A stretch of DNA of 64,000 bases from Blastopirellula sediminis (lineage in GTDB: Bacteria; Planctomycetota; Planctomycetia; Pirellulales; Pirellulaceae), in assembly GCF_020966755.1 (NCBI RefSeq), contig NZ_JAJKFT010000004.1, positions 682,001-746,000 of the forward strand, given 5' to 3'. The position numbers and the translations under genes are program-made. The notes under the pieces are model-generated. The model did not search any database, was not told where the DNA came from, and saw only the letters and a list, made by a program, of their open reading frames with translations. Of the stretch, positions 6,008 through 51,119 are shown in pieces (positions within the stretch are counted from its first letter, which is position 1; every line of letters begins with the position of its first letter).

Positions 6008-7323
6008 GCCAGCACTTCCTTCAGCGGACCGTTGGTCGAATCGAATTTCTGGGCGAGCTTCTCGCTCATGTTGTAGCGATCGCAGTTAACCCCGGCGGCG
6101 TTCATGATCGCCGTGTAAAGAGAGTTGATCGGACGCGTCCCGTCGAGTTGCGTGAAGCGGCCGGTCTTGAACGCGCCGTCGAAGTTGCCGAGCAGCATCA
6201 CGGGCCAGTTGGCGCCGCTGGTGTGCTGACTGTCGGCGTTGTTGCTGGTGTAGACGATCAACGTGTGATCCATCATCGTGCCGCTTCCTTCCGGAATGCT
6301 TTCGAGCGATTCGATGATCTTCACGAGCATACGGCAGTTGTACTGACGGATCTTAACCCAGATCGGATTGTTGGGCTGATCCATGTGCCCCAGGTTATGA
6401 CCCTGTTGATCGATCCCCAGTCCCTTCCAGGCGCCAAAGATTTCGCCGCGACCGGAACCGATCGTCAGCGTGTTGGTGATGCCGGAGGTCAGGGCCGAAA
6501 TGCCAAGGTCGAGCAGCGCGTCATGCCAGTCGGTTTCGAACTCGGGCTTGGTATATCGCTCGTCTACGGCCGGGGCGAACTTGCGCAGATGATCCGAAAC
6601 GGTGTCGAGCCGCTCACGCAGGCCGTTAATGTCTTTGAAGCCGTCGACGTACTGGCGATAGCGCTGCTGGTCGGCGACCGGAAGCGACTCGCCTTTGGCG
6701 GCGGCTAGTTTTTCGATCTGGTCGAAGGCGTTCGAGCGGGCCTCGTGCTGACGGCGGATATCGCCGGTCGAGATGCCGCCGTAGAGCATCTGGTAGAGCT
6801 GATTCGGATTCGAGTACATAAAGACCGGCTGACCGGCGCCGCTGGCCGAGAGGGTCGCGAGAGTCGGCTTGGCCGTCATGTTCTCCATCGAGTCCATGCC
6901 GATGCAAAGATGCGGCAACAGCGTTTGCGGCAGGACCTTGCTCAATTCGTAGTCGATCGTCGCGGCGCTGGGAGGAACGCCATCGCCGCCACGATAACCG
7001 CCGAGCGCGCCGAAGAAGGCGCTATGGGAGGGGCTGGTATGTTTGCCATGCAGACCGTTGATGATATGCAGGCGTTCTTTGTACGGTTCGAGTGGGCTGA
7101 TCGGATCGGGGAGTTTCACGCCGGCCAGGGAGCCGCTGTTTTTCATCCCTTGGGGGACGCAGGTTGCCGGATCGAAGCCTTGATTCTGCAGGAAGAAGAT
7201 GACGCGTTTCGGCTGCGACGTTTGGCCGCTGGAGGCGAAGAGACGCTCGGCTGACAGGGGAAGGCCCAAAGCGGCCCCGGCTCCTGTCGCCACGGCTTGC
7301 AGCATTCTTCTACGGTCCAGCAT
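6004..7323 (-). CDS. DUF1552 domain protein (DUF1592 partner)
   Basis: A 439-residue protein with a twin-arginine-like start ([19 protein letters not shown]), so probable Tat export. The body matches DUF1552: residues such as [18 protein letters not shown] near the N-terminus and [20 protein letters not shown] near the C-terminus. DUF1552 proteins occur next to DUF1592 proteins in planctomycetes and have an alkaline-phosphatase/sulfatase-like flavour, but no known substrate. It is the first gene of a two-gene operon and overlaps the next by 4 nt. The spacer 7324-7648 should carry its promoter. A second, diverged copy lies at 21389-22783. Confidence 0.92.
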
Positions 7324-7648
7324 GTTCGCTCCTTCTACGAAGTGAAGTGACGGTCGTCTTCGGTCGGCGCAGGGAAAGTCTTGCGGAGGGAAAACCAGCG
7401 ATTCTCTGTCCCCTTGGGGTTAGGGGGAGATCACCGGCAAAGATACGGCAAATCGGGAGTGTTTCGGGCAGGGGGGCGACTTTTGAGTATATCGATCCCA
7501 CGACGGGGAGACTACAGAATTCGGCCGAAAGCGCAACGGAAGATCGATGCAATTGCCATGCGGAATCAGCACAAGCACATTTTTTGCAACGTCGTGAGAG
7601 ATCGCCATACTCTAGCGGGGGCGACGGTGAGGCTCGGACCAAGAAAGC
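7324..7648. other. Promoter-bearing spacer of the DUF1552-DUF1592 operon
   Basis: About 325 bases between the terminator of the giant surface-protein gene and the start of the DUF1552 gene. It must contain the promoter for the minus-strand operon. I could not single out convincing -35 and -10 boxes. Short frames here have no coding features. Confidence 0.5.
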
Positions 7649-7684
7649 AAAAAGCCGGCTGGCGATCAGTCGCCAGCCGGCTTT
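7649..7684 (-). terminator. Rho-independent terminator of the giant surface-protein gene
   Basis: A perfect 15-bp stem (7651-7665 with 7670-7684) closes a 4-nt loop. On the minus strand it is followed by a T run (A run at 7649-7653 on the plus strand). It lies 22 nt past the stop codon at 7707. Confidence 0.93.
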
Positions 7685-7706
7685 ATTTCGGTTTTGCCGT
7701 GTGGGA

Positions 7707-10700
7707 TTAGAAGACGAACAGTTCGTCCAGCTCGTCCTCTTCCTCGGTGAACAGGGCGTCCACCGTTTCAAAGTTTTCGCTGTCGCCGGTTAGCGAGTCG
7801 AGCAGCTGCTCGTCGACCAGTTCCCCGTCCAGCGACTGCTGGGCGACCACTTCCGCGTCGACCGCCTGGTAGGTAGTCGACTCGACCGACATGGTCGTCG
7901 TCGAGGTAACGTCGCTCGGGATCCAGAAGACCGGGGCGGCCGAGACCGATTCCCCTTCGATCGCGACGCCGCCGCTGATCATCGACTCCGAATCGTCGCT
8001 GGCAACCGGCGAAACGACCTCGAAGTACGAGGTGCTCGCGGCCGGCGCCGGAGCGGTCGACTCCGCCACTTCTTCCGCTTCCAGCGTGAAGCTGGACGTC
8101 GAAGGCGCCGAGGTACCGATCTTCTTGATGATCTGCGTCAGGTCGAGCAGGCTGACGACGCCGTCATGGTCGAAGTCAAAAGCCCACGCGACGTCCGACG
8201 GCAGGTTGAACAAGTTGCCGATCTGGCGAATGACCAGCGCCAAGTCGAGCAACGTGACGGCGCCGTCATGATCCAAGTCGGCCGCTTCTTCCCAGGACGA
8301 GCCATGCGACGGAGTCGGCAAGTTGATCTCGGGGAACTCGATTACCGGCGTCGGGTTTTGCGGCGGCGCGTCGGCGACCGGCGGATCGAAGTTGCCGACG
8401 ATCGGCAGGCCGTTGTTGTTGCCGAACATCGCGTATTGATCCGGACCGAACGGATCGGTCAGGAACTTCGCCACGTTCCGGCCCAGCGGATCTTCCGAAG
8501 GCGGAATCATGCGATCCGGGTTTTCCCAGATCGGGCGAGCGACGCCGTTTTCGTCGCTGTCCGAAATCAACAGGAACCATTCCGCCTGACTGCTCGACGA
8601 GTTCTGTTGATCGGGGACAAACAGGCCGAGGTCTTCGACCCCGTCCGAGTTGAAGTCGGCCGAGACCGGACGTTCACGCACCCCTTCGAATCCGAACCAG
8701 AAGGTTTGGTCCGCCTTGCCGTCCCAGCCGTTTTCAACGCCGCCGGTCAGATCCAGGAAGAACTTGTCGTCTCGCCAGACGCCGAGATCGTCAAAGCCGT
8801 CGCCGTCCCAATCGCCGACGATCGGCTTGCCGACCAATTGCGTGTAGATCGGCGTATCGATCTGGTTGTCGTGGTTGGTGTCGATCCAGAAGGTGCCGGT
8901 TTCGCCGACGTAGACGCCGACTTCGTCACCGTTGTCGGCGTTGCCGTCAAAGTTGCCCGCGACCGGTAGGCCGTTGACCTGAATGTTCTGGATGACCGTC
9001 GCGTCAGGTGCTCCGTCGTTGTCAAAGTCGAACTGGAAGCGGAACTTGCCGTTCACCTTGCCGTAGACCGCCAGGCGATCGAAGCCGTCGGCGACGCTGC
9101 CGGCGCTGGGCGTGAACTGCCCGGCGAAGACGTCGTCGGTGCTGAAGCCGATCGCGAAGGTGAGGTCTTCGTTGGTGTCGTCCGAGTTCTCGGTGTCGAC
9201 CATGAAGTTGCCGTTGATGTCGATCAGCGTCGTGCCGTAGCTGGTGACGCCGATTTCGGGATGGCTGTCGATCGTGAAGCGAGCCAGGAACGATCCGCCG
9301 GCGACGCCGTTGCCGGTGGCGAACGACGGATCATCTTGCGGTTCGGCCGCGTTGCTCTCGCCGTCCAGCATGTTGCCGGCCGGATCGGTGAGCGAATCGG
9401 CGATCTTCAGCGTGTAGCGATCGTCCGGCAAGGCTTCGAAGAATTCGAGCGTTACCGTCGAACGGGCTACCGAACCGGCAGTCGTGTCGTGCGTGATCGT
9501 GATCGACTTGATCGGGATCAAGCCGTTCGCGTCGCCGATCAGCTGGAACGTGCCGGCCTGCAGCGCGGTCGCATCGGAGATCGCCGGATAGAGGAAGCCG
9601 AAGTCGTCGACCGACGTGGGAGCGACGACGCTGGTGTTGAGCAGCGCGTTGGTGGTCTCATAAACGGCGGCGTCCGGATCAATGATCTGGAGTTCGGCCA
9701 AGTCCGAAGTCCCGACGCCGATCGCGTAAATGTTCTTCGCCACGGCGGCCAAATCGGCGGCTGCCGCGGTGTGGGCGCCCGGCGTACCGGAGAAGCCGTC
9801 AGCGAAGAAGAGGACGGTCGAGTTGGCGAATCCGGAGTTCTCCAGAATCGTCGTCGCGGCTTGCAGACCGGCGGTGTAGTTGGCCGAACCGCCGGCGTTA
9901 ATCGACTCGAGGGCGTTGATCAGGTCGAGCTTGCCGTCGTTGTTGTTGTCGGCGGCGGCCGTGGTGAACTTCGAGCCGATGCTCAAGTCGAGCGAGACCG
10001 CGGTTCCGCTGACCATCACCACCAACGAGACTTTGGCGACGTCGCCCAGTCCCGCGTCGATCAGCTGCTGATTCGCCTTGATGATCGCGGCGATCTCGGC
10101 GTCGAGCTTGGTGTTGTAGATGCCGTCGCCGTTGAGGTCGCCAACCTGCGTGCCGGCAATCGCGCCCAGCGTGCTGGCCGAAGCGTCAATCACAAAGGTG
10201 ACGTCAGGCGAGTTGCCAGTGGCGAACAGCTGGACGCCGGGGCGAATCGGGAGATCGCTGAAGTCGATGTCCAGACTGGTGATCGGCGGAGTCGGACCGT
10301 CGACCGAAGGCTTCGGTGCGAACAGGTCGTAGTCGGGCGAGCCGGTCACGCTGACGTTGTCGATCGTCGGACCTTGCGTGTCGACCATCATTTCGAGCGT
10401 CGTGACGATCGAGATGTTGCCGGCCAGGTCTTCCGAAGTGACCACGATCTGACGGATGCCGTCGAACGCGAAGTAGTTCGGGTTGTTCAGATCGTACTTG
10501 CCGGTCAGGCTCCAGAAGCCGACTTCCGGGTTGCCGTCGTTACCATCGAGCGGCGAAGCGGCGGTTAGACCTTGATAGACGTAATTGCCATTGAGGAAGG
10601 CGATCACATCGGCGGCCGACATGCCGTTCAGCACGGAAAGGGCGGCGCCATCCAGCGGCGTGTCGGTGGCGTACAAGCGGATCACCGAGTTCGACTCAGC

Positions 10701-32820: not shown

Positions 32821-33969
32821 TTAACCTTTGCGGTAGTCGGCTGGGGTGACGCCGGTATGTTCGCGAAAGGCGCGAATGAAGCCGCTGGTGCTGTCAAAAC
32901 CGCTCCGGATGGCGACATCGACGATGCTAAGCGGAGTCGACGTAAGCAAATGCTGGGCATGACGCATGCGGGACAGCCGGATCTCGTGGGCGATCGAATG
33001 GCCGATCGCGTTCTTGAACCGCTTTTCAAGCGTTTTGCGACCGAGCTGCAAATGGTCAACCACGTCAGTCACCGTGATCGGCCGATGACAGCGATCACGT
33101 ATGAATTCGATCGCCGCAACGACGTCGGCGTCTTCCAGGGCGAGAAACTGCGACGAGCGGCGGACGATTAGCTGTCCCGGCGGGACGAGAATTGGTCCCG
33201 CCGGCAGCTCGGCGCCTTCGATCAACTGATCGACCAGCTGAGCGGCGAGATAGCCGATCCGCTCCGAGTTCTGAGCGACGCTCGAAAGTTGCGGCGTCGT
33301 CGTTTCGCAGATCAAACGGTAATCGTTGACCCCGATCACCGAAACGCTATGCGGTACCGAACGGCCGATCGCCTTACAGGCTTCGACAATCTCGTGGGCG
33401 AACTCATCATGGCACGATCCGACGCCACAAGGTTCCGGCAACTGTTCGATCGCGTGTTGCAGCGCTCCTTGGTGAACCTGGCGGTTGATGGTTTCGAGCG
33501 ACGTCTCCGACTCGAAAGCGATATCGATCGATGCGGCGTCGAAACCGCTTTCCGCCAATCGCTGGCGAAAGCCTTCTTGCCGCATTCGATTGTGATGCCA
33601 AGCGAAATGCCCGACGAAGGCGAAGTTACGGAGGCCGAGAGTTAGCAAATGCTCGGCCAGTCGCCGCCCGAGTTCGAAGTTGTCGGAATGGACGACCGGA
33701 ACGCCGGCTTCCGGCTCGGCATGGAGCGTGAGATTTACGAACGGCATTCCTAGGCTCTTCAGGAAGTCGATTCGCCCCTGACTTTCGGCGTAGGCGATGA
33801 TCCCTTCGGCGGCGACTTTATCGAGCAGCTCGATCGGAACGTACGGAATTGCGGCCCGCTTAGTAATCTGAATGCGCCCCGTTTCGGCCGCATATTGCAT
33901 GACGCCCCGGATCATCCGCACTTGATTGTCGGAACTCGGCACGACGGCGAGCGTAATCTTGTGCGGCAT
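32821..33969 (-). CDS. XylR-type AraC-family regulator of the sialic acid cluster
   Basis: A 382-residue regulator with a LacI-like sensor (residues about 1-275) and a C-terminal AraC double helix-turn-helix (about 280-382: GRKTLEKRFKNAIGHSIAHE, then DSTSGFIRAFREHTGVTPADY). The frame is open upstream to 34293; I chose ATG 33969 because MPHKITLAVV aligns with the start of the sensor fold in the two sister regulators. ATG 34104 is an alternative, and neither has a strong ribosome-binding site. It follows the epimerase gene of the sialic acid cluster on the same strand, so it probably senses an amino sugar and controls that cluster (inference). Confidence 0.88.
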   Translation of the reverse strand: MPHKITLAVVPSSDNQVRMIRGVMQYAAETGRIQITKRAAIPYVPIELLDKVAAEGIIAYAESQGRIDFLKSLGMPFVNLTLHAEPEAGVPVVHSDNFELGRRLAEHLLTLGLRNFAFVGHFAWHHNRMRQEGFRQRLAESGFDAASIDIAFESETSLETINRQVHQGALQHAIEQLPEPCGVGSCHDEFAHEIVEACKAIGRSVPHSVSVIGVNDYRLICETTTPQLSSVAQNSERIGYLAAQLVDQLIEGAELPAGPILVPPGQLIVRRSSQFLALEDADVVAAIEFIRDRCHRPITVTDVVDHLQLGRKTLEKRFKNAIGHSIAHEIRLSRMRHAQHLLTSTPLSIVDVAIRSGFDSTSGFIRAFREHTGVTPADYRKG

Positions 33970-34114
33970 ACCGGTGAGCGGAACGATTTTGGAAAACTGC
34001 CGCCGATCGCGCCACGGAGGTTCATCCCGCGAAGCGTCGTCATGCAGGCCAGAGTTGGCGCGCCAATCCACGAGAGGTGTTGACCTTGTCAAGTTAAGGG
34101 ACATCGGCTCAGCT

Positions 34115-34141
34115 GGCAAGTCGCTTACGTGGCGACTTGCC
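34115..34141 (-). promoter_or_regulatory. Hairpin at the stop codon of the epimerase gene
   Basis: A perfect 10-bp stem (34115-34124 with 34132-34141) with a 7-nt loop containing the epimerase stop codon (34125-34127). There is no following T run, so it is not a canonical terminator. It could stabilise the upstream mRNA or reduce read-through into the regulator gene. Confidence 0.5.
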
Positions 34142-35331
34142 CTAGCGCGGCCTGACGATCGGCGGCCGAGGCGCCTCTGTCGAGCAGTTTCCAGCAGATC
34201 AGCTGCATGCGGGGAAGGTGGAAGGGACCTTTCCAAAGATTGCCTTTGAGCGGAGTGCTGATTCGCCCATCGCGATGAAGGTAGCCGTACCACTCCCCAT
34301 GTTCCGGATCGGGGAAGTGGCGGTACGCCCAGTCATGAATCTGCTGGTGCATCGCGGCGTACTTCTCGTCGCCGGTCAATTGGTACGCCATCAGGGTGGC
34401 GATGATCGTTTCGTTTTGCGGCCACCAGAACTTCATGTCGTGCCAGTATTCCTGCACTGGCAAACCATAGAGATCGACGAAGTAGAGGAGCCCGCCGTAC
34501 TCTTCGTCCCACCCCCGTTTCCACATCCAATCGAGGATCCGGCAGCCGAGCTGCACCAGCGACGCGTCCCCCCGGTATTCTCCTTCCTGCATCACAAACC
34601 AGGCCGCTTCGATCGCATGTCCTGGATTGAGCGTTCGTCCATCGAAGTGATTGAGGACCTCCCCCTCCAGGCCAACGGTCTCCATCACGCACTCCAGCTT
34701 TTCCTTGACGTGATAGGTGCGGATGGCGTCGATGCTGCGGTCGATCCACTCGTTCGCCTCTTCCAGGCCGATCGACTCGCGCAGCTCTTGCGCCGTGTTG
34801 ATCGTGATCATCGGGAAGCCGATCCCGCGCGTCGGGCGGACGTCGGTGAATTTGGGGGTCACTCCTTGCGGATTCAGATTGTGCTGGATGAAGCGATGAA
34901 AGAGTGCGCGGGCCTTGGTTGCGTATTCGTCGCTGCCGGTCGCCTTGGCGTACTGGGCGAAGGCGATCGCCGCGAACGATTCGCTGAAGGCGTAGCGGCG
35001 TTTGCGGATCGGGGCGCCTTCGCGCGTGACGTGAAACCACATGCGACCGTCGGCGGAATCAAAGCAGTGTCGCTCGATAAACTGAATGGTTTGCTCCGCT
35101 TGCTGGAGCCATTCCTCGCGTCGCTCGACCTGGTTGTACAGCTTTCCCATGAGCCAGGCGAAACGCCCCTGTTGCCAGACTCCCTTGTCGGTGTCGAGAA
35201 GCGAACCGTCTCGATTGACCGCGGTCATGATCCCGCCGTACTGCCGGTCGACGGCATGCCGCAGCCAATACGGGACGACATTTTGCAGCAATCCGTCTCG
35301 ATAAAGTGAGAGCAATTCCGAGCGACGCGCA

Positions 35332-35339
<8 letters not shown>
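34125..35339 (-). CDS. AGE-family N-acylglucosamine 2-epimerase
   Basis: A 404-residue (alpha/alpha)6-barrel epimerase of the renin-binding-protein/AGE family. It would interconvert N-acetylmannosamine and N-acetylglucosamine without phosphorylation, directly after the lyase step. Supporting segments are [20 protein letters not shown] near the N-terminus, [20 protein letters not shown] near 180, [16 protein letters not shown] near 240, and [10 protein letters not shown] near 365. The start is ATG 35339, overlapping the upstream transporter gene by 8 nt. Cellobiose 2-epimerase is a sister family, but the genomic setting favours ManNAc. Confidence 0.9.
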
Positions 35340-37941
<2,602 letters not shown>

Positions 37942-38001: not shown

Positions 38002-38919
38002 CTATCGAGTGACGAACCCCTCGAAAAAGCCGACCTGACAGAGCAATTCACGCAGGCGAATCTTTTCGTCCGGCGTGAGTGCGCGTTGCGGTAGGCGACA
38101 GTCGCCGAAGTCATAGCCGAGCATTCCCAGAATCGCTTTCATCGCCGAATGGAACGGGAAGGTTCCGATGGCGTTGATCATTTCGATCGCTTGATTCTGC
38201 AAAGCGCGGGCTTCGTTCCAGTCGCCCGCCTCAAATGCTGCGATGATCTGGTGGTAGAGAGGGGCGGCGATATTATACGTGCTGCCGATTGCGCCCGTCG
38301 ACCCAGAAGCGAGCGCGCCGAGCAACATCTCGTCGCAGCCCCAAACGACGTCAAATCGCTCGTTTTGCAGCTTCAAGCATTGTTGGAATTCATGCAGTTT
38401 GGTGTCGGTATATTTCAGTCCGACCAGATTTGGAATCTGCTGGCCGCCCAGTTGCATGAACTGCGCGATGTCGATCGACGAGCCGGTCAGGACCGGAATG
38501 TGATAGTAGTAGAAGGGGAGATTCGGCGCTCCGCCGGCGATTTCCCGCATGCAGTCGACCAACAGTTGGGCCGATTGGACCTTGAAGTAGGAGGGGCACG
38601 TGGCCGAAACCGCATCGGCGCCAATCGCCTGCGCGTGGGCGGCCAATTGTTTCGCTTCCACGACGCTGTTGTGCCCGACCTGGATAATCACCGGCAAACG
38701 ACCATCGGCCGCTTGCACATAGCTTTCGGCAACCAGCCGACGTTCTGCGCTGGTGAGCGACATCCCTTCGCCGGTGCTGCCGCAGACGTAAAGTCCGCTG
38801 ACGCCGGCGGCAATCAAGTGCTCCACCATCTGCGGCGTTTGCTCTAAGCGAAGCTGGCCGACTGCGTCAAAAGGGGTATAGGTCGCGGCGATCAGGCCGG
38901 TCAATCGTTTGGCGTTCAA
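38002..38919 (-). CDS. nanA: N-acetylneuraminate lyase, DHDPS/NAL superfamily
   Basis: A 305-residue class I aldolase splitting Neu5Ac into N-acetylmannosamine and pyruvate. Seen: the carboxylate-binding GSTGE loop (residues 47-51), catalytic Tyr139 in YYYHIP, and Schiff-base Lys169 in GLKYTD. The YYYHIP and GLKYTDT segments look more like the vertebrate NPL/Pasteurella type than like dihydrodipicolinate synthase. The start is TTG 38919 with AGGAG at 9 nt spacing; no ATG fits. It sits 41 nt downstream of the sialidase fusion and 60 nt upstream of the transporter fusion. Confidence 0.92.
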   Translation of the reverse strand: MNAKRLTGLIAATYTPFDAVGQLRLEQTPQMVEHLIAAGVSGLYVCGSTGEGMSLTSAERRLVAESYVQAADGRLPVIIQVGHNSVVEAKQLAAHAQAIGADAVSATCPSYFKVQSAQLLVDCMREIAGGAPNLPFYYYHIPVLTGSSIDIAQFMQLGGQQIPNLVGLKYTDTKLHEFQQCLKLQNERFDVVWGCDEMLLGALASGSTGAIGSTYNIAAPLYHQIIAAFEAGDWNEARALQNQAIEMINAIGTFPFHSAMKAILGMLGYDFGDCRLPQRALTPDEKIRLRELLCQVGFFEGFVTR

Positions 38920-38960: not shown

Positions 38961-41900
38961 CTAACGGGGCGGAAGTTGGAGATAGTTTTGATATTCCCAT
39001 GACTCGCCGACGGCGTATTTGCCGTTCTTGCGCTTCTGGACGACCCTGTCATGTTCTTCCGCGAGACGCTTTAGCGCAGCAGGGGAAAGAAGTGGATCGT
39101 CATGTTGCAGGCGGAACGTCTGCAATTGGGCCAGCAACTTTTGCCGAACCGGTTCATACTTCGGATCGTTGGCTAAGTTCGTGAATTCCCAAGGATCGGC
39201 TTTAAGGTCATACAATTCGACCTCCGGCGGCGAGCGCCACGTTTCGTAGGCCTGACGAACAGGCGGTTCGGCAGCAGCGATCTCCGCTTCGGTTGTTCCG
39301 TAGACGAAGAAACTGTTGGCGTGATTCGCATACGCATCAGCGACAGGATTCGTCCGGTCGGGCGTCAAATTCAAAATCAACTTGAACTGCCGATCGCGAA
39401 GCGTCCGCTGCGGAAAGAAACTGTCGGCGCTATAGGCGGTTCGTTCCGCGAACAAGAAGTCGCGCCACGCAATATTCTCATTGCGGGCCAATGGAAGCAA
39501 CGATTTCCCCGGAAGAGTTTCGCTCGGCGGCAATCCAGCGGCGTCCAAAATGGTTGGGAGAATGTCGACGGTCGAAATCAATTCGTCTCGCACTACTCCA
39601 GACGGTAAATGCCCGGGCCATTGGACGATCAGCGGAATTCGGAGTCCTCCCTCGTAGCAGGTCGCTTTGCCACGCGAAAACTGAGCGCCATGATCGCCGA
39701 AATAGATGATCATTGTATCTTCGGCCTTGCTCGACTTGTTGAGTTCGTCCAGCAACATGCCGATTCCAGCGTCAAGACGCATGATGCAGTTGTAGTAGTT
39801 GGCGACTCCCTCGCGGATACGAGTATTGTCGACGCCGATAAAGGGAAGCGTTTTCACGTCGTCGGCGCTAAGCGGTTGCTTTGGCAAGCCGTACTGCTGT
39901 CGCAAAAGGGGGAAATGAGCGTCGGGAAAGTTGACTGTCAGAAAGAAGGGCTGATCCGAGTCGTTGATGAACTTCGCCGCCGCCTCGACATACTGGGCGA
40001 CAGGGCGATCGCCAAAGCCGTTGCCGGTGATAGCCTTGTAATCGAAGGGGAACGCCGACTCTGGATTGACGTGTAATTTGCCGATGATGCCAGTACGATA
40101 GCCATTCTGGCGTAGCACGCTGGGGATATTGTCCCACGCTCGAAACATTGCGTAGCGGTGCGTCGCCAGACCGATCTGGCCATTCTGAAAGGGAAATAGC
40201 CCGGTCAAGTAGCTCGCTCGAGACGAAGAGCAAATAGGGTGGGTCACATAGGCGTTCTCGAACCGGCATCCGCGTGCAGCCAATCGATTAAGATTCGGCG
40301 TTTGCGCGTATGGATCGCCATAGCAACCAAGTTCCTGGCCGTTGTCCTCCGAGATGATTACCAAAATGTTCGGCCGCTTCTTTGCGGTGGTGCGCTCGTT
40401 GATTGTCGCTGCTGTGGTGAAGGGAGATGCCGGCAATCCAGCGCCATTGAAAAAGTTAACGCTTGGCTGCGGAAACGGCGACCAGGCGTAGCGCGCCATC
40501 TGCGGCGCCGGAACTTCTGGGCTGGTTAGAATGACCGATGCACCGATGATTTTCGCAATGGCGGAGTGGAAATTGCCGTCAGCGCCGGCGAGCTCAAAAT
40601 GTCGTAGCGGCTTCCCGTCGCTCGACACCAGGCCGCTGTTGACGTGGTCGAACGTGAGGCGGAATTGATTCCCTTTCGCCTCGCAGTTGCAAAAGAGGGG
40701 ACCGCAGTCGTCGGCCGCTTGCGGCTGTTGATAGACGTTCGCCAGCGCCCAATAGGCGAGCCGATCGCCAACGACCTGTTTGGCGTGCGGATGGACGTTG
40801 GTGCGTTCGCCGGTATCGATGGTGATCGCCATCCCGACGTTCTCCAGTTGATCGAGCATTCGCCGCTGACCATCACGAAACGCCGGCCACTCGGGACGCT
40901 CGATCGCAGGTAGTTGCACTTGCAGAAATGGAAGGTCGGCTCGCCCCCATTGCTTGCGCCAATCGGCGATCATCGCTGGCAACAGCGTATTGTGCTGCAC
41001 GACGCGCTCCGCCGTTTCGGCGTTCGATTCTCCCTGGTACCAGAGGACGCCCCGAATGGCCAGAGGAATGACCGGCGCGACCGCGGCATCCCAAAGGAAC
41101 CCGGGCTTGAACGGATGGTTGGGACCAAGATCGTCGCTGGGAACTTGTGCGCCGGCTTGAATGTTAGGAAGTAGATTCTCGACGCCGCGCATCTTACAGA
41201 AGTCGCCGAGGAGCGGATTGCGCAGCCAGTCTCCGGCGACCAGTCCTTGCAGCTCGGGCGTCGATTCCAGCAACTCGCGACGCATCCAGGCTTCGGTCGG
41301 CGAGCCTCCTTGGCCAACGTTGATCAGACCAATTGGCACGTTGAGCGTTTCCTCGAGCTTCCGGCCAAAGTACCAGCCGACGGCCGAAAACTCAGAAGCT
41401 GACTCAGGGGACGCCGTCTCCCACTGTCCGACGCAATAGTTTTCAGGCAGAAGGTGCGAGAGATGTTCGGCGTTGTTGACTCGTGGAACGCCGGGGGCGC
41501 CTCCTTGCAGATTGAGCAACCGAATCAAGGGACGGTTGGCGGCGGCGATTTCTTCCGCGCCATGGTTAGTTGAACGGAGCGGCCAGGCCATGTTCGACTG
41601 ACCGGCACAATACCAAACTTCGCCGATCAGAATGTCGCTAATGGTCACGCGCGAGCCTTCGCTCTCGACTTCCAGTTCAACCGGCGTACGGCTCGCTTCG
41701 CGAACAGGAAAGGTAACCTGCCAACGTCCTGTTCGACTGGCGACTGTCGATTGACGCTCGTCGCCCAGACGGACGTCAACGCTTGCTCCGACCGGAGCCG
41801 TTCCCCAGATCGGCAGCGGAAGATCGGCTTGCAGCACCATGTGATCGCCGAAAACTTGCGGCAGCGACAGTCCGACCGGTTTTTTGGCCGTTGGTTTCGG

Positions 41901-43973
41901 CTGTTCAGCGCCGATCACGTCGACCAGCGGGACTCGCTGGAATTGAAGATGCGATCCGCTTCCTTCGTAAATGATGCCGATCGTTTCGGAATCGATCATC
42001 GTCATACAGCTGTAACCGGCGCCGCTTCCTTCGTCCAGCAACAGTCGATTCTCTTGCGGCCAACTCTTGCCGCCGTCGGGCGAACCCTTGATCATGATCC
42101 GCTGGCGGCCGCTTAGGCTGTCGGGGTTCGAGAAGAGGAGCCAGCCGGGCTGTTCGTGGACCAGTTCACGATTGACGTTGATCAGGCTCGCCATGCAGGC
42201 CGTCGGTTCGATTAGCGAACGACGGGAAGTGGGGTGCTCCTTCCACGTCTTGCCCATGTCGGTCGTCGTCATCACGACGCGGGTCGACTCTCGGTTGTAG
42301 CGGCAGTTGAGCATCAGTACGCCCGGCTCGACTTCGACGACCTGCGCTTCGGTCGTGTCGTCAAAAGCGCCGGCGCCTGCGTGCCACGTTTTGCCATGAT
42401 CCTTGGAGTAGATGATCGTTGAGTGAGGGAGTCGCTGCTGCTCTGGCGGATCTTGATACTGCGCGGCGAAGACGAGCGTGCCGTCCTGCATCGCGATCCC
42501 CTTGCCGGGACCTTGCAGTAAGAGAGACCATTCAGGGCGTTTAACCTGTGCGGTGATGTTGATTGGCGCGGACCAGGTGCGTCCATCGTCGCTTGAGCGG
42601 ACGAGCATCAACTGGCCCGTTTCTTCCGGCGAAAGCCCTTGGCCGGAGCGATGCCAAGCGCGATCCCCGTGACTCCACAGGGCGGCGACCCAGATGTCGC
42701 CGGTCGCTGGATCGACCAGCACCGCCGGATCGCCGACGCCGTCATAGCGCCACTTTGGATCGCTCCCCATATCGAAGATGATCTGCATCGGTTCCCAGGT
42801 GCGCCCGCCATCGGTGCTGCGCGACATGCCGACGTCGATGTCGCCGGGTAGATCCCCCCCGGACCGATGACGAACGTCGTAGACGGCGATCAGCGTCCCT
42901 TGCTTCGAGGTCGCGAGACCTGGAATGCGACAAGTGTGAACCCCGTCGTCCCCTCCTTTACGCAGTGCGTAGCCGATTCGCTGGGCTCGTGGCGTCGCCA
43001 CCGCTTCGATTGCGTACGACTTACCGGCGATCTTCGCCGAGCTCGCCTGAACGTCGATCGTCTTCGCGGAGTCGGCGGTTTCTTTTAGCTCGATCGAAAC
43101 GAAGAAATGATTGGGGCCGGGCGAAAGTTCGTAATCCCCGTCGAACTGCAATTGAGACGACAACTTCGACACGCTGCCGAAAGACTGCAATTCTTTCGAA
43201 TCGAGTCGGAGGCTTCTCCAATTGGGAGCGTCAAGGTTTCCCGTGGCGAAGAGGTCGAGCCTGGCGATCTGGTCGAGCGGCAGGGAGCCGGCAAGCTTCA
43301 GATCAAGTTGAGACAAGCGGAGCGGCTGAAGGCTTCCCTCGACCGTTACGCAAATGTCGAGCACCGGATTCAGCTGGCTGTTGACCAGTACCGGCACGAC
43401 CGGTTGTCTGGCGGTGACCGAGACGATGCGCTGCGGCGTCGCAATTTCGACCGACAAGTCGTCGATCATCACGCCGCTCTCGTCCGGCGTCGTGCTAGTG
43501 AAGCGGATTTTCTGCGGAAGTCCGTTCGGAAGCGGCAGCGATAGTCGATTCTGGAACGAGCCGATCTTGGCGGTTCCGCGGTCGTGATAGAGCGTCGTCC
43601 ACTTCTGCCCGTCGCTCGCTTCTACGAGAAAATCAAACGGTGCTCGCTGCGTCCAACGTTCGAACCAGAATTCCAGCCGATCAACCTTGGCGCTCGTCTT
43701 CGGCGGCGTCCAGGTGACGCTCCGTTTCTCGCCACCCAGCAGACGCAAGCTTTGCTTGCCGCTGCGGTGGTGCGCGGTATGAACGACGGCCTGATTCGGC
43801 TCGGCAGTCCAATTGCCCGACGTGTCGTCGGTAGAGCGAAGTTCGCCGGCAGCGAACTCTTCAAAGCCGGTTGCGATGCGACTTGGTGCGACTGGCTCTG
43901 CGACGGCGAGATTTCCCCACGCAATCGCAGACCAGGCGATGCAGAACGCTAATGGTGAACGGCGAATAAACAT
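38961..43973 (-). CDS. Tri-enzyme protein: sialidase, sialate O-acetylesterase and sulfatase
   Basis: A 1670-residue secreted protein with a signal peptide (FIRRSPLAFCIAWSAIAWG). Residues about 30-340 are beta-rich sialidase N-terminal modules. Residues about 345-690 are an exo-alpha-sialidase with a CRIPGL motif near 350 and five Asp boxes (STDGGRTW, SSDDGRTW, SKDHGKTW, TTDMGKTW, SPDGGKSW). Residues about 700-1190 are a SASA-type sialate O-acetylesterase (GQSNM at 791-795, WYQGE at 978-982). Residues about 1200-1670 are a type I sulfatase with ICSSSRASYLTG, whose Cys1248 would become formylglycine, plus FGDHGAQF. It would strip sulfate, acetyl and sialic acid from host or algal glycans. A GTG at 43985 is an alternative start. 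Confidence 0.94.
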   Translation of the reverse strand: MFIRRSPLAFCIAWSAIAWGNLAVAEPVAPSRIATGFEEFAAGELRSTDDTSGNWTAEPNQAVVHTAHHRSGKQSLRLLGGEKRSVTWTPPKTSAKVDRLEFWFERWTQRAPFDFLVEASDGQKWTTLYHDRGTAKIGSFQNRLSLPLPNGLPQKIRFTSTTPDESGVMIDDLSVEIATPQRIVSVTARQPVVPVLVNSQLNPVLDICVTVEGSLQPLRLSQLDLKLAGSLPLDQIARLDLFATGNLDAPNWRSLRLDSKELQSFGSVSKLSSQLQFDGDYELSPGPNHFFVSIELKETADSAKTIDVQASSAKIAGKSYAIEAVATPRAQRIGYALRKGGDDGVHTCRIPGLATSKQGTLIAVYDVRHRSGGDLPGDIDVGMSRSTDGGRTWEPMQIIFDMGSDPKWRYDGVGDPAVLVDPATGDIWVAALWSHGDRAWHRSGQGLSPEETGQLMLVRSSDDGRTWSAPINITAQVKRPEWSLLLQGPGKGIAMQDGTLVFAAQYQDPPEQQRLPHSTIIYSKDHGKTWHAGAGAFDDTTEAQVVEVEPGVLMLNCRYNRESTRVVMTTTDMGKTWKEHPTSRRSLIEPTACMASLINVNRELVHEQPGWLLFSNPDSLSGRQRIMIKGSPDGGKSWPQENRLLLDEGSGAGYSCMTMIDSETIGIIYEGSGSHLQFQRVPLVDVIGAEQPKPTAKKPVGLSLPQVFGDHMVLQADLPLPIWGTAPVGASVDVRLGDERQSTVASRTGRWQVTFPVREASRTPVELEVESEGSRVTISDILIGEVWYCAGQSNMAWPLRSTNHGAEEIAAANRPLIRLLNLQGGAPGVPRVNNAEHLSHLLPENYCVGQWETASPESASEFSAVGWYFGRKLEETLNVPIGLINVGQGGSPTEAWMRRELLESTPELQGLVAGDWLRNPLLGDFCKMRGVENLLPNIQAGAQVPSDDLGPNHPFKPGFLWDAAVAPVIPLAIRGVLWYQGESNAETAERVVQHNTLLPAMIADWRKQWGRADLPFLQVQLPAIERPEWPAFRDGQRRMLDQLENVGMAITIDTGERTNVHPHAKQVVGDRLAYWALANVYQQPQAADDCGPLFCNCEAKGNQFRLTFDHVNSGLVSSDGKPLRHFELAGADGNFHSAIAKIIGASVILTSPEVPAPQMARYAWSPFPQPSVNFFNGAGLPASPFTTAATINERTTAKKRPNILVIISEDNGQELGCYGDPYAQTPNLNRLAARGCRFENAYVTHPICSSSRASYLTGLFPFQNGQIGLATHRYAMFRAWDNIPSVLRQNGYRTGIIGKLHVNPESAFPFDYKAITGNGFGDRPVAQYVEAAAKFINDSDQPFFLTVNFPDAHFPLLRQQYGLPKQPLSADDVKTLPFIGVDNTRIREGVANYYNCIMRLDAGIGMLLDELNKSSKAEDTMIIYFGDHGAQFSRGKATCYEGGLRIPLIVQWPGHLPSGVVRDELISTVDILPTILDAAGLPPSETLPGKSLLPLARNENIAWRDFLFAERTAYSADSFFPQRTLRDRQFKLILNLTPDRTNPVADAYANHANSFFVYGTTEAEIAAAEPPVRQAYETWRSPPEVELYDLKADPWEFTNLANDPKYEPVRQKLLAQLQTFRLQHDDPLLSPAALKRLAEEHDRVVQKRKNGKYAVGESWEYQNYLQLPPR

Positions 43974-44018
43974 GGCGGATTTCACAGGTTCGTACTTCGT
44001 GCAAGTCGTGCAGGCAGT

Positions 44019-47310: not shown

Positions 47311-49617
47311 CTATTCGTAGAGCAAATAGGGAGTGCGGCGTCGGGCGAATTCGTCGAGCGAGGAGGAGTACGACTGCATGATCACCTCCGGCGAATCCCC
47401 GTTTTCGATCTGCTTCAGAACGCCTGCGTTGCCAAGCAGCGTGGGAAGTTTTTTGGACTCCCAAGTTTCGGGATAGGTCTTATGCAGCGCCGCCGCAAGC
47501 GCCCAGGCGAGATGGACCGGACGGAATTTCTCCCAGTCGGTGATCACAAAGTTGACGCCGCCGCATATCTCCCCTTCGTACTTGCTGCTGGTCGGCTGGA
47601 ATTCGATTGGAACGATTCGCACGCCAGGCGGGTTGTACGCTTCGATTTCGGCGGCCAATTCCGGACCTTTGATCCATGGAGCGCCGATCAGTTCAAACGG
47701 CGTATCGGTTCCACGACCGACCGAAATGTTGGTCGTCTCCAACAGCCCGACGCCGGGATAGAGGAGCGCCTCGGTCAGCGAACGCATGTTGGGCGAAGTA
47801 TTCCGCCAAGGCAGCCCGGTGTCGAACAGTAGCGCATCGCGGCGCCAGTTTTCCAATTTGATAACGGTCAGATCGGTTCCAAACTTGCGTTCCGCGTTGA
47901 GCATCTGCGCCATTTCGCCGATCGTCAGCCCGTGACGAACTGGAATCTGGTGGAAAGCGACGAACGAGTGCTTTTCTTCGTCGAGCAGCGGGCCTTCCAT
48001 CAGCACGCCGCCGATCGGATTGGGACGATCAAGAACAACGAACGAGATCTTGTTCTCCGCCGCCGCTTCCATCGCCAGGCCCATCGTCGAGATGTAGGTG
48101 TAAAACCGGCAACCGACGTCCTGAATGTCAAAGACGAGCGTATCGACTCCTTTCAGCATCTCCGGCGTCGGCTTCCGCGTCTTGCCATACAAGCTTTTCA
48201 CCGCCACTCCCGTGGCCGGATCGACGGTGTCGCCGATTTCCGATTGATCGAGAGCGCCGTGGAAGCCATGTTCGGGACTGAAGATCGCAACAAGTTCGAC
48301 GTTCGGCGCTTTCGCCAACAACTCCACGATCGAATCGCCCGACTTGGTGCGGCTCGTGTGATTGGCGATCACGCCGACCTTACGTCCTTTCAGCGCCGCA
48401 AAGTTGCTGTCGGCCAGCACGTCGATGCCGAGCTTGGTCGGCGGGGCAGGGGATGGCGCCGACGGCGTCAAGCAAGCGGCGCTGGCGATCGTACCGATCT
48501 TCCCCGCCAAGTCATTGACCGAGCCTTTGCCGTCCGGATGAACGCGATTCGAGAGGAACAGCACGACCAGATCCAAGCCTGGATCGATCCAGAGAGCGGT
48601 ACCAGTAAAGCCGCCATGTCCATAGGCGGCCGGGGTCATCAGGTCGCCGCGATTGCGCGAGTACGCGCTCTTCTTGTCCCAACCCAGGCCACGAATGTTG
48701 CCGACGGCGTCATACGGGCTGGTCATCAGCGCGATGGTTTGCGGCTGCAGTAGCGCCTTCTCGCCGCCGAAGCGCGAGTCAAGCATTGCCTGAGCGTAGA
48801 TCGCCACGTCGTCCGCAGTGCTGAACAAGCCGGCGTGACCGGCGACTCCTCCCATCGCGCGAGCGCGCGGATCATGCACCGATCCCTTCAGCCACTTGCC
48901 GTCGACTTCTTCGGTGGTAGCGGCGTTCTCGCACAGTTGCGGCGCGGGGTTGTAACCGCTCTGCTTCATGCCGAGCGGCTCAAAGATGTTTTTCTGAGCG
49001 TATTCGTCCAGCGTCTGGCCGCTCACGCGAGCGACGATCTCGCCGAGCAAGATAAAACCAACGTCGGAATAACGAAACTTGTCTCCCGGAGGCGACAGCA
49101 ACTTCAATTCGCAGATCCGCTTGTAAGCGTCGGGCCAACCGTTGTCGTAGTCGCTCAGCGCATTGTCAGGCGTAAGGCCGCTGACATGGATCATCAACTG
49201 TTCGACGGTGATGTCTTCTTTGCCGTGGTCACGGAACTCGGGGAGATAGGTCGACACTTTCTCCCACAATCGGACGTCGCCCCGTTCGACCAGCTGCATG
49301 ATGCTGGTCGCGGTGACGATCGGCTTGGTGATCGAGGCCATGTCGAAGAGCGTGTCGGTCGTCATCGCTTCGGTCGTCGGTTGAACGCGGCGATTGCCGA
49401 ACGACTCTTTAAAGACGATCTTCCCGTGGCGAGCGACCAGAACGACGCAGCCCGGCATCTTCTTCTCTTCCAGTGCAATCTGCACCTGACGTTCGATGTC
49501 GGCGCCAAAGTCGGCCCGCATGCCGACTTCACTCGGCGTAGCGTGCGGCAACTGTGCCTGTGCAGCACAGGGAATCGCCAACAGAATCGCGGTCCAGATC
49601 AACGAGCGGTGAATCAT
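47311..49617 (-). CDS. Serine beta-lactamase-like domain fused to exo-N-acetylmuramidase NamZ (DUF1343)
   Basis: A 768-residue secreted protein with a signal peptide (SLIWTAILLAIPCAAQAQ). Residues about 22-375 are a class C beta-lactamase/AmpH-EstB fold with the SxxK motif in MASITKPIV near residue 93 and a YGHGGFTGTALW box near 350. Residues about 395-768 are DUF1343, now known as NamZ (GH171), which releases MurNAc from the non-reducing ends of murein fragments; markers are GVIANHTSRT, FSPEHGFHG, VFDIQDVGCRFYTY and DRPNPIGG. The start is ATG 49617, overlapping the upstream symporter stop (ATGA). The lactamase-like half may be a peptidase trimming the stem peptide (inference). Confidence 0.93.
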   Translation of the reverse strand: MIHRSLIWTAILLAIPCAAQAQLPHATPSEVGMRADFGADIERQVQIALEEKKMPGCVVLVARHGKIVFKESFGNRRVQPTTEAMTTDTLFDMASITKPIVTATSIMQLVERGDVRLWEKVSTYLPEFRDHGKEDITVEQLMIHVSGLTPDNALSDYDNGWPDAYKRICELKLLSPPGDKFRYSDVGFILLGEIVARVSGQTLDEYAQKNIFEPLGMKQSGYNPAPQLCENAATTEEVDGKWLKGSVHDPRARAMGGVAGHAGLFSTADDVAIYAQAMLDSRFGGEKALLQPQTIALMTSPYDAVGNIRGLGWDKKSAYSRNRGDLMTPAAYGHGGFTGTALWIDPGLDLVVLFLSNRVHPDGKGSVNDLAGKIGTIASAACLTPSAPSPAPPTKLGIDVLADSNFAALKGRKVGVIANHTSRTKSGDSIVELLAKAPNVELVAIFSPEHGFHGALDQSEIGDTVDPATGVAVKSLYGKTRKPTPEMLKGVDTLVFDIQDVGCRFYTYISTMGLAMEAAAENKISFVVLDRPNPIGGVLMEGPLLDEEKHSFVAFHQIPVRHGLTIGEMAQMLNAERKFGTDLTVIKLENWRRDALLFDTGLPWRNTSPNMRSLTEALLYPGVGLLETTNISVGRGTDTPFELIGAPWIKGPELAAEIEAYNPPGVRIVPIEFQPTSSKYEGEICGGVNFVITDWEKFRPVHLAWALAAALHKTYPETWESKKLPTLLGNAGVLKQIENGDSPEVIMQSYSSSLDEFARRRTPYLLYE

Positions 49618-51119
49618 GAATGTTCCTCGGCGGGAGTTCCCTGCGGCACGGCCGCTTCGCTGGGGAGAAGTTTGGATAGGAGGGTCGCGACGCAAAACGT
49701 GCTGCTCGCGGCGAGCGGTGCGTACCAATAGCCGCTGACGCTGGTCGAGTATTTGATGGTAATGATCACCACGGCGCCGCAGATAAGCGCGGCGTTCGCC
49801 TGCCAACTCGGAATGCGACCGACGACGATGGCGACGAAGAAGAGCCCCAGCAGCAGCCCCGCCGAAAAACCGGCGATCGCCAGCGCTTGATCGACGACCG
49901 AGCTACCGAAGGCGAACGAATAAGCGCCGATCGCCACGGCGGCCTGCAACATGGTGAACAGCAAGGTAAAACTGCGACCCAAGAGAAGACGCCGGACATC
50001 GGGCAGGTGACGCCAAGCGTCTCCTCCCAGGTCATCAAGAAGCGAACTGGCGGACGAATTGACCGAACTCGATAGGGTCGACATTGCCGCGGCGAAAACC
50101 GCCGCCAGGATGACTCCGCGTACGCCGATCGGCAAATCGTCGACGATAAAACGAGCGAACGCCTGATCTCCGGCAAGTTCCAATTTGCTGGGATCAAACT
50201 GTGTAAAGTAGCAAGCGAGTCCCACGCCGATCGCCAGGAACAGGGCGAACTGCAAAAAGACGATTGGCCCGCTCCAGAACAGAGCCCAACCGGCGGCCCG
50301 TTGATTCTTCGCACACAAGTAACGCTGCACGATCAGCTGATCGGCGCCATGGGTCGCCAGGCTTAGGACGCCGCCGCCAAAGATCCCCGCCCAGAGCGTT
50401 AGGTGGCCATCGCTCGGCAGGAATTGAAAGTCGAACATGTGTAGCCGGCCGGTCTCCGAGGCGAATTGCCAATACTGCCCAAAGCCGCCGGGAAGTCGGG
50501 CCCAAATCAGGCCGATCACGATCAGCGCGCCGGTCATATAGACCGCGAATTGCAGACAGTCGTTCCAGATCACCGAGCGAACGCCGCCGCAGAGCGCGTA
50601 CACTGCGGTCGCGACCGCCAAGATCAACACGCTCACTTCAAACGGAATGTCGACGACCTGTTGCAGGGCGAGTGCGGTAAGAAAGAGCCGTAGCCCGTCT
50701 CCGAGCGTCCGCGCTCCGAGAAAGAAGATCGACGCCAACTTGCGGGTAGAAACGCCAAAGTTGCGCTGCAAAACGGCATAAGCCGTTGAGTTCTCATGAC
50801 GAAAGTAAAGGGGCAAGAGAAACGTCAACACCGCGATTCGGCCAATGATGTAGCCGATGGCGAGTTGGAGAAATGAAAAGTTTCCGCCCGAGACGAACGC
50901 TTTGCCGGGCACGCTTAAAAACGTGACGGTGCTCGTTTCGGTCGCGACGATCGAGAGGAGGAGCGCCCACGAGGGCAAATCGCGGGAACCGAGAAAAAAC
51001 TCGGTCGTCGAACTTTGACCCCGTCCGAGCCAAACGCCAAACAACGTCGTCGCGACGATGTAGCATCCGATGATGCTGATATCGACAGGAGAAATCGCTA
51101 GTGATGCGATGAAGATCAT
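49614..51119 (-). CDS. Sodium:solute symporter, probable MurNAc/amino-sugar importer
   Basis: A 501-residue inner-membrane protein with about 13 hydrophobic segments and SSS-family features, including GRGQSSTTEFFLGSRDLPSW near residue 35, SVIWNDCLQFAVYMTG near 183 and the ASTxSSSVNSSASS segment near 350. The start is ATG 51119. It is coupled to the NamZ fusion gene by a 4-nt overlap and divergent from murQ. It would import the MurNAc released by NamZ, since no MurP-type PTS gene is present. Substrate is inferred from context. Confidence 0.9.
   Translation of the reverse strand: MIFIASLAISPVDISIIGCYIVATTLFGVWLGRGQSSTTEFFLGSRDLPSWALLLSIVATETSTVTFLSVPGKAFVSGGNFSFLQLAIGYIIGRIAVLTFLLPLYFRHENSTAYAVLQRNFGVSTRKLASIFFLGARTLGDGLRLFLTALALQQVVDIPFEVSVLILAVATAVYALCGGVRSVIWNDCLQFAVYMTGALIVIGLIWARLPGGFGQYWQFASETGRLHMFDFQFLPSDGHLTLWAGIFGGGVLSLATHGADQLIVQRYLCAKNQRAAGWALFWSGPIVFLQFALFLAIGVGLACYFTQFDPSKLELAGDQAFARFIVDDLPIGVRGVILAAVFAAAMSTLSSSVNSSASSLLDDLGGDAWRHLPDVRRLLLGRSFTLLFTMLQAAVAIGAYSFAFGSSVVDQALAIAGFSAGLLLGLFFVAIVVGRIPSWQANAALICGAVVIITIKYSTSVSGYWYAPLAASSTFCVATLLSKLLPSEAAVPQGTPAEEHS

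Follow-up and report, generated by a model that had tools for sequence, protein, structure and literature searches.

Can a single secreted polypeptide strip O-acetyl and sulfate groups from a sialoglycan and then release the sialic acid itself? The question is raised by a gene of Blastopirellula sediminis (Planctomycetota) that lies in a 64,000-nucleotide stretch of contig NZ_JAJKFT010000004.1, hereafter the window. The original prediction, drawn from the letters of the sequence, was that this gene joins a sialidase, a sialate O-acetylesterase and a sulfatase in one chain. Our analysis indicates that the product is probably a secreted, single-chain sialoglycan deblocking enzyme, with its activities, order of action and substrate predicted from module content, gene context and relatives.

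Modules of the chain

The chain is encoded by one stop-free frame on the minus strand (38961-43985), which spans 1674 codons from a GTG; an alternative start, the ATG at 43973 used in the original prediction, gives 1670 codons. We count residues from the GTG, so that the formylglycine cysteine predicted as Cys1248 from the ATG is C1252 here. The chain begins with a probable signal peptide and a beta sandwich resembling carbohydrate-binding modules, followed by BNR_assoc_N, a GH33 sialidase, a SASA (sialate O-acetylesterase-type) esterase and an S1 sulfatase. All Pfam domains of the chain score above their gathering thresholds, and all three enzymes have both Pfam and PDB matches within the single frame, the latter well outside what chance would give, which bears out the predicted fusion. 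Every predicted motif (CRIPGL, GQSNM, WYQGES, CSSSR and five Asp boxes) was found in the translation. The two checks proposed with the prediction gave one frame rather than separate genes, and three intact sets of catalytic residues that are conserved in relatives. The roles of these sialidase, esterase and sulfatase residues are those known for the respective families. The host genome holds a single full-length copy of the chain.

The probable signal peptide (aa 1-29, 43899..43985, minus strand, as for all features of the chain) is a hydrophobic leader ending in AVA, judged by eye. The N-terminal domain that follows (aa 30-185, 43431..43898) appears, from AF2 and Foldseek, to be a beta sandwich like those of carbohydrate-binding modules. 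These roughly 150 residues are conserved across 38 aligned sequences, with ERWT and others invariant, and the window copy has no Pfam match. The AF2 model has a middling pLDDT of 65; its top Foldseek matches were CBM61, CBM16, CBM29 and CBM4, with TMq about 0.5, and it also resembles other jelly rolls. As modelled, the sandwich may anchor the chain on its glycan.

The sialidase part consists of a BNR_assoc_N domain (aa 189-322, 43020..43421; PF14873, 9.7e-18) and a GH33 module (aa 341-695, 41901..42965; PF13088/PF13859) with its BNR_2/BNR_3 match at aa 355-662. Its best phmmer match among solved enzymes was 4fj6 (433 bits, E 1.5e-128). It has the features of a GH33 exo-sialidase, namely a propeller, six-bladed in enzymes of this kind, with five Asp boxes (aa 390, 464, 527, 574 and 635), the arginine triad R353/R562/R627, D378, E546 and Y658, and each of these six residues is retained in 84-86 of 86 aligned sialidases. 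We predict that the module is an exo-sialidase, which would hydrolyse alpha-linked sialic acid. The closest solved relatives with BNR_assoc_N, 4fj6 and 4bbw, are from Bacteroidota. Sialidases of that phylum (L023-L025, L030 and L031; L numbers denote loci) are 55-58% identical to the window propeller and, unlike the window chain, occupy sialidase-only frames of about 550-580 aa.

The esterase module (aa 701-1192, 40410..41885) has a SASA match at aa 976-1077 (PF03629, 2.2e-17), and its best phmmer match among solved enzymes was 9ega (E 5.5e-80). The SGNH-type serine in GQSN (S797) is retained in 43 of 43 aligned esterases and the histidine in HPxxK (H1065) in 42 of 43. Solved relatives carry the name sialate O-acetylesterase, and a further match, 9h4u, is named only carbohydrate esterase. 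Activity toward O-acetylated sialic acid, as opposed to other acetyl esters, is the predicted function of this module.

The sulfatase module (aa 1196-1674, 38964..40400) matches Sulfatase at aa 1205-1484 (PF00884, 8.5e-48) and SGSH_C at aa 1440-1538. By best hit it appears to be SGSH/S1_8-like: the leading phmmer match was human SGSH (4mhx, 185 bits, E 4.2e-52), followed by S1_8A (164 bits) and the other S1_8A-C matches (109-136 bits), and the K, H, H, D and metal-site positions of these enzymes align with those of the module. The metal and catalytic residues of an S1 formylglycine sulfatase (E1213, D1214, C1252, R1256, K1303, H1305, H1357, D1431, H1432 and K1440) are retained in 15 of 15 aligned sulfatases. 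The codon of C1252 is at 40230..40232. Its motif, CSSSR, conforms to C-x-[PAS]-x-R and is a variant of CxPxR; fused and nearest sulfatases have S, A or P as the third residue, and three fused relatives share or vary at this deviating position. Formylglycine maturation is plausible given 13 matches to the FGE-sulfatase family in the host genome. We note that the G+C content of the sulfatase module is 0.551, against 0.587 to 0.617 in the other modules, a weak hint that it arrived later.

Related chains and known fusions

We searched for relatives with the sialidase module. Within 241 same-family genomes, 89 matched at 1e-70, in 117 places; we examined 65 of these places, window included, and the remaining 52 are open frames of 614 aa or less. 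Wider draws, which overlap the family, gave 67 matching genomes of 397 at class level (at 1e-100) and 15 of 392 at phylum level, and 37 further places were fetched from these two lists. The unfetched places are frames of at most 619 aa on the class list and include five of 689 to 779 aa on the phylum list. A sulfatase shares one frame with this sialidase type in 29 of 103 examined sialidase frames, a proportion that is not a frequency, because large frames were fetched deliberately. Of the genomes behind these 29, 22 are among the 241 of the family and 7 belong to one other family (f19) in the class draw of 397.

We sorted 83 sialidase modules sharing 40% identity or more by the architecture of their frames; 81 come from the searched genomes, the window among them, and 2 from Bacteroidota, and several of the frames end at contig ends. 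The most common forms were the sialidase alone (27/83) and sialidase-esterase (16/83). Ten had a sulfatase at each end (N-sulfatase-sialidase-esterase-C-sulfatase, chains of about 2200 aa) and nine were N-sulfatase-sialidase-esterase. Sialidase-Abhydrolase_3 accounted for seven and sialidase-two esterases for three. Two modules each fell to sialidase-esterase-C-sulfatase (the window and L166, the latter cut at its 5' end), sialidase-two esterases-C-sulfatase, SASA-GDSL-sialidase and N-sulfatase-esterase-sialidase, and one each to N-sulfatase-sialidase, esterase-sialidase and sialidase-GDSL. Twenty added places comprised 3 N-sulfatase-sialidase frames stopping at or near contig ends, 14 sialidase-Abhydrolase_3 frames and 3 without a recognised partner. 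Among the examined frames, the window chain is the only one of exactly sialidase-esterase-sulfatase order that is complete at both ends, and esterase and sialidase are swapped in L173, L174 and L177. This bacterial group shows many combinations of these modules, and the fusion in the window is not a single oddity.

Several of these loci deserve separate mention. L085 (sialidase-two esterases-sulfatase) has, by eye, a sulfatase-like frame directly upstream, and may be a broken five-module chain. Sialidase, esterase or sulfatase frames are broken by a stop or a change of frame in L095, L099, L103 and L131. SASA and GDSL domains, two N-terminal esterase-type modules, precede the sialidase in one frame in L108 and L110. 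In a second sialidase clade, whose members are 44-48% identical to the window propeller, fusion to Abhydrolase_3 is a regular feature (L119-L123, L175, L176, L199-L209, L211, L212 and L215; L119 also has a GHL10 match), so that a different esterase seems to have joined a different sialidase clade. In the tree of sialidases, L067 of the same genus is the sister of the window; the sialidase of L067 is alone and free-standing. This locus (3898-9122) contains sialidase, lyase and regulator only, with no kelch-symporter and with an epimerase-like remnant of 202 aa that matches no Pfam family; it looks like a sister locus that was partly lost. Two other genomes of the genus gave no sialidase match in the 1e-70 search.

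Joining of a glycosidase to a sulfatase has a precedent in PDB 6hr5, by its entry name a rhamnosidase and a sulfatase in one molecule. It differs from the window chain in glycosidase family and substrate, has no esterase, and presumably has a role in the use of ulvan. Two sialidases of Bifidobacterium bifidum are closer in kind. SiaBb1 is likewise an O-acetylesterase/sialidase fusion, from a different phylum and with no sulfatase mentioned in the excerpt of the source (PMC10017367). In SiaBb3, according to an excerpt of its report, GH33 is likewise fused to a second enzyme and sialic acid removal precedes the second step, but the partner is a GH123 beta-N-acetylgalactosaminidase that acts after the sialidase, with neither esterase nor sulfatase (PMC12856340). 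Full-text searches of the open-access literature, outside which most subscription papers lie, returned no paper on a sialidase-sulfatase or triple chain or on a sialate sulfatase, as judged by title and abstract. A paper on digester Planctomycetota reports many sialidases and a Nan cluster, and its excerpt does not name such a fusion. Sialidase-esterase and sialidase-GalNAcase fusions are already known. Our analysis adds that the window chain belongs to a modular, repeatedly assembled sialoglycan enzyme set in this bacterial group.

Origin of the fused sulfatases

A tree of 58 SGSH-like sulfatase modules, built without S1_8 rows, pairs the window with L034 (support 100/95). The other fused SGSH-like sulfatases fall into two further clades, which consist solely of fused, frame-broken fused or double-sulfatase chains. 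With L099 and L103 scored as frame-broken fused and the double sulfatase L143 placed among those without a sialidase partner, the fused state changes 4 times on this tree. Constraining the 14 fused modules together lowered the log-likelihood by 214.8 (AU p 5.7e-5), which rejects one common fusion for all of them; constraining the 13 without the window lowered it by 101.2 (p 3.4e-6). We note that the constraint groups were defined after inspection of the tree, that long branches are present, and that the number of events is uncertain. Since the fused SGSH-like sulfatases do not form one clade, we conclude that recruitment took place on more than one occasion. The larger chains carry a different type of sulfatase at their N terminus; its best matches are 6hhm, an arylsulfatase by name (300 bits), and iduronate-2-sulfatase (255 bits).

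The closest relative of the window sulfatase that we found, in L034 (a 3 kb Planctomycetota contig), is a separate gene. It is 69% identical to the window over 175 columns, is cut by the contig end and fills 36% of the tree columns. It is divergently oriented from two genes, one sialidase-like and the other a lyase homologue 60% identical to that of the window; the sialidase-like protein scores 135 bits to the solved sialidase 1eur and has an altered RIP motif. To place the lineage more broadly, 40 of 93 sulfatase homologue rows, chosen by identity, were fetched with their context, and 37 of the 40 proved free-standing. None of these 37 had a lyase, kelch or symporter match in its fetched region, some regions ending at contig ends. 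Many adjoin other sulfatases, and four have a distant GH33 neighbour (L147, L157, L162 and L163). Specificity of the sulfatase lineage as such for sialic acid was thus not borne out (0/37); the lineage is general, and what ties it to sialic acid is the fusions together with L034. A distant GH33 is also the fusion partner of two more sulfatases of the lineage (L107 and L165), and in L079 a further SGSH-like sulfatase and a main-type sialidase are about 8 kb apart.

Proposed function and alternatives

The chain lies directly upstream of sialic-acid catabolic genes on the same strand. These are a gene resembling N-acetylneuraminate lyase (38002..38919; DHDPS 6.7e-62), a kelch mutarotase of the NanM type joined in one frame to a sodium:solute symporter (35332..37941; PF24996 NANM 5.2e-39, PF00474 SSF 5.2e-37), an N-acylglucosamine 2-epimerase-like gene (34125..35375; PF07221 7.3e-45) and a regulator with a Peripla_BP_3 sugar sensor and an AraC-type HTH (32821..34293; Pfam). 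The lyase-like and epimerase-like genes are named by their best NCBIfam matches, which fall below the curated cut-offs (190 bits against 281, and 373 against 600, respectively). Lyase, transporter, mutarotase and a ManNAc-processing enzyme alongside a sialidase make up a sialic acid catabolic cluster, and together the neighbours form a route from freed sialic acid to GlcNAc. The mutarotase-symporter is a single protein of 869 aa, and the same fusion occurs in related loci (e.g., L069, L070, L098, L100 and L112). Scans for promoters (3 found, 3.7 expected) and terminators (11 found, 12.9 expected) were at chance level.

We propose that the SASA module would take O-acetyl groups off sialic acid, that the sulfatase, once C1252 is converted by a formylglycine-generating enzyme, would strip a blocking sulfate from sialic acid or an adjacent sugar, and that the GH33 module would then hydrolyse the bared sialic acid. 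The mutarotase-symporter would import the product, and the lyase and 2-epimerase would convert it to ManNAc and GlcNAc. O-acetylated sialic acid generally resists sialidases, according to an excerpt of a 2023 review (PMC10017367); by inference, sulfate on sialic acid may block them likewise. Where a chain has two sulfatases or two esterases, each module might clear a position of its own. In outline, then, the catabolic context and the repeated fusions in relatives support the predicted one-chain deblocking of sialoglycans, with activities assigned from family resemblance. Weighing against it are the neighbourhoods of the 37 free-standing homologues, the free-standing sialidase of L067 and the lack of a match in two other genomes of the genus, the departure of CSSSR from CxPxR, the altered RIP motif in L034 and the other partners to which sulfatases are joined in this genome.

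What would the sulfatase act on? Sulfate on the sialic acid itself has close to an even chance, sulfate on an adjacent sugar is possible, and something else is unlikely. The first of these would make the fused modules dedicated sialate O-sulfatases. Single polypeptides, built repeatedly, would then undo a code in which sialic acids bear both acetyl and sulfate groups; we advance this reading tentatively. In it, one sialidase would be accompanied by as many as two sulfatases and as many as two esterases, with a module for each position, and the bacteria would feed on sulfated sialoglycans like those of sea urchins and vertebrates. One study reports sulfated sialic acids as ubiquitous among vertebrates, along with two identified sialate O-sulfotransferases (PMC9304399), and 8-O-sulfated sialic acids are described from sea urchin gametes (PMC9630641). 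The authors of the 2023 review knew of no report of a microbial sulfatase that acts on sulfated sialic acid (PMC10017367), which makes the fused sulfatases good candidates. Sulfatases joined to sialidases thus make a short, testable candidate list for the missing sialate sulfatase activity. If active, they would serve as reagents for acetyl and sulfate removal in sialic acid analysis, and the repeated, reordered fusions offer a natural experiment on which glycan modifications must come off together.

Alternatively, the sulfatase might target a neighbouring sugar (sulfated Gal, GlcNAc or GalNAc), and the chain would trim sulfated sialoglycoproteins with no sialate sulfatase involved. This possibility, which we consider real if somewhat doubtful, draws on the known enzymes. 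SGSH and S1_8A-C, free-standing unlike the window module, have N-sulfoglucosamine and 2-sulfated galactose or xylose as substrates, and characterised S1_8 enzymes act on sulfates at position 2 of hexoses or glucosamine, as given in excerpts of two reports (PMC12549532, PMC10154612). Sialic acid has no obvious equivalent of that position, and the known activities on 2-sulfated and N-sulfated sugars predict no sialic acid position. In addition, gut sulfatases characterised on colonic mucin have 3S-Gal or 6S-GlcNAc as targets, according to the review excerpt (PMC10017367), and the free-standing homologues sit in general sulfatase clusters. However, the genes adjacent to the chain handle sialic acid only, no galactosidase or hexosaminidase gene was recognised among its annotated neighbours, and the sulfatase is fused to a sialidase and a sialate-type esterase. 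These points argue against a neighbouring-sugar target.

The shared chain could also exist so that its modules are secreted together or displayed at the surface on a mixed sulfated polysaccharide, with the sulfatase taking no direct part in sialic acid release. Sulfatase joining per se is not unusual in this genome, which fuses sulfatases to unrelated partners: a weak GH43 match in L189 (960 aa frame), a xylose isomerase-like TIM barrel in L194, where the sulfatase shares 47% identity with the one at the N terminus of the four-module L088 chain, and a second sulfatase in L188 (924 aa). We nevertheless consider this explanation improbable, because two sulfatase types were joined separately and repeatedly to one sialidase type and because the L034 sulfatase lies beside a lyase homologue. 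Finally, relatives whose frames are interrupted within a module or around the junction of two modules (L099, L103, L095 and L085) might suggest that the single frame is an assembly artefact or a missed stop and that separate proteins are made, but we reject this as extremely improbable given 1674 codons without a stop, a 1.8 Mb contig in a 10-contig assembly that is 99.96% complete, and similar intact chains in many other genomes.

The host genome has a second sialic acid-type locus (L195, C2:573000-579000), where a sialidase-like gene stands on its own in a 417 aa frame (36% identical to the window propeller), along with a lyase homologue (48%) and a divergent regulator. Within the window, a beta-lactamase-fold domain is fused to the N- and C-terminal domains of NamZ, an exo-beta-N-acetylmuramidase (47311-51119, minus strand); this gene adjoins a second sodium:solute symporter gene, and the pair looks like a locus for scavenging peptidoglycan sugars.
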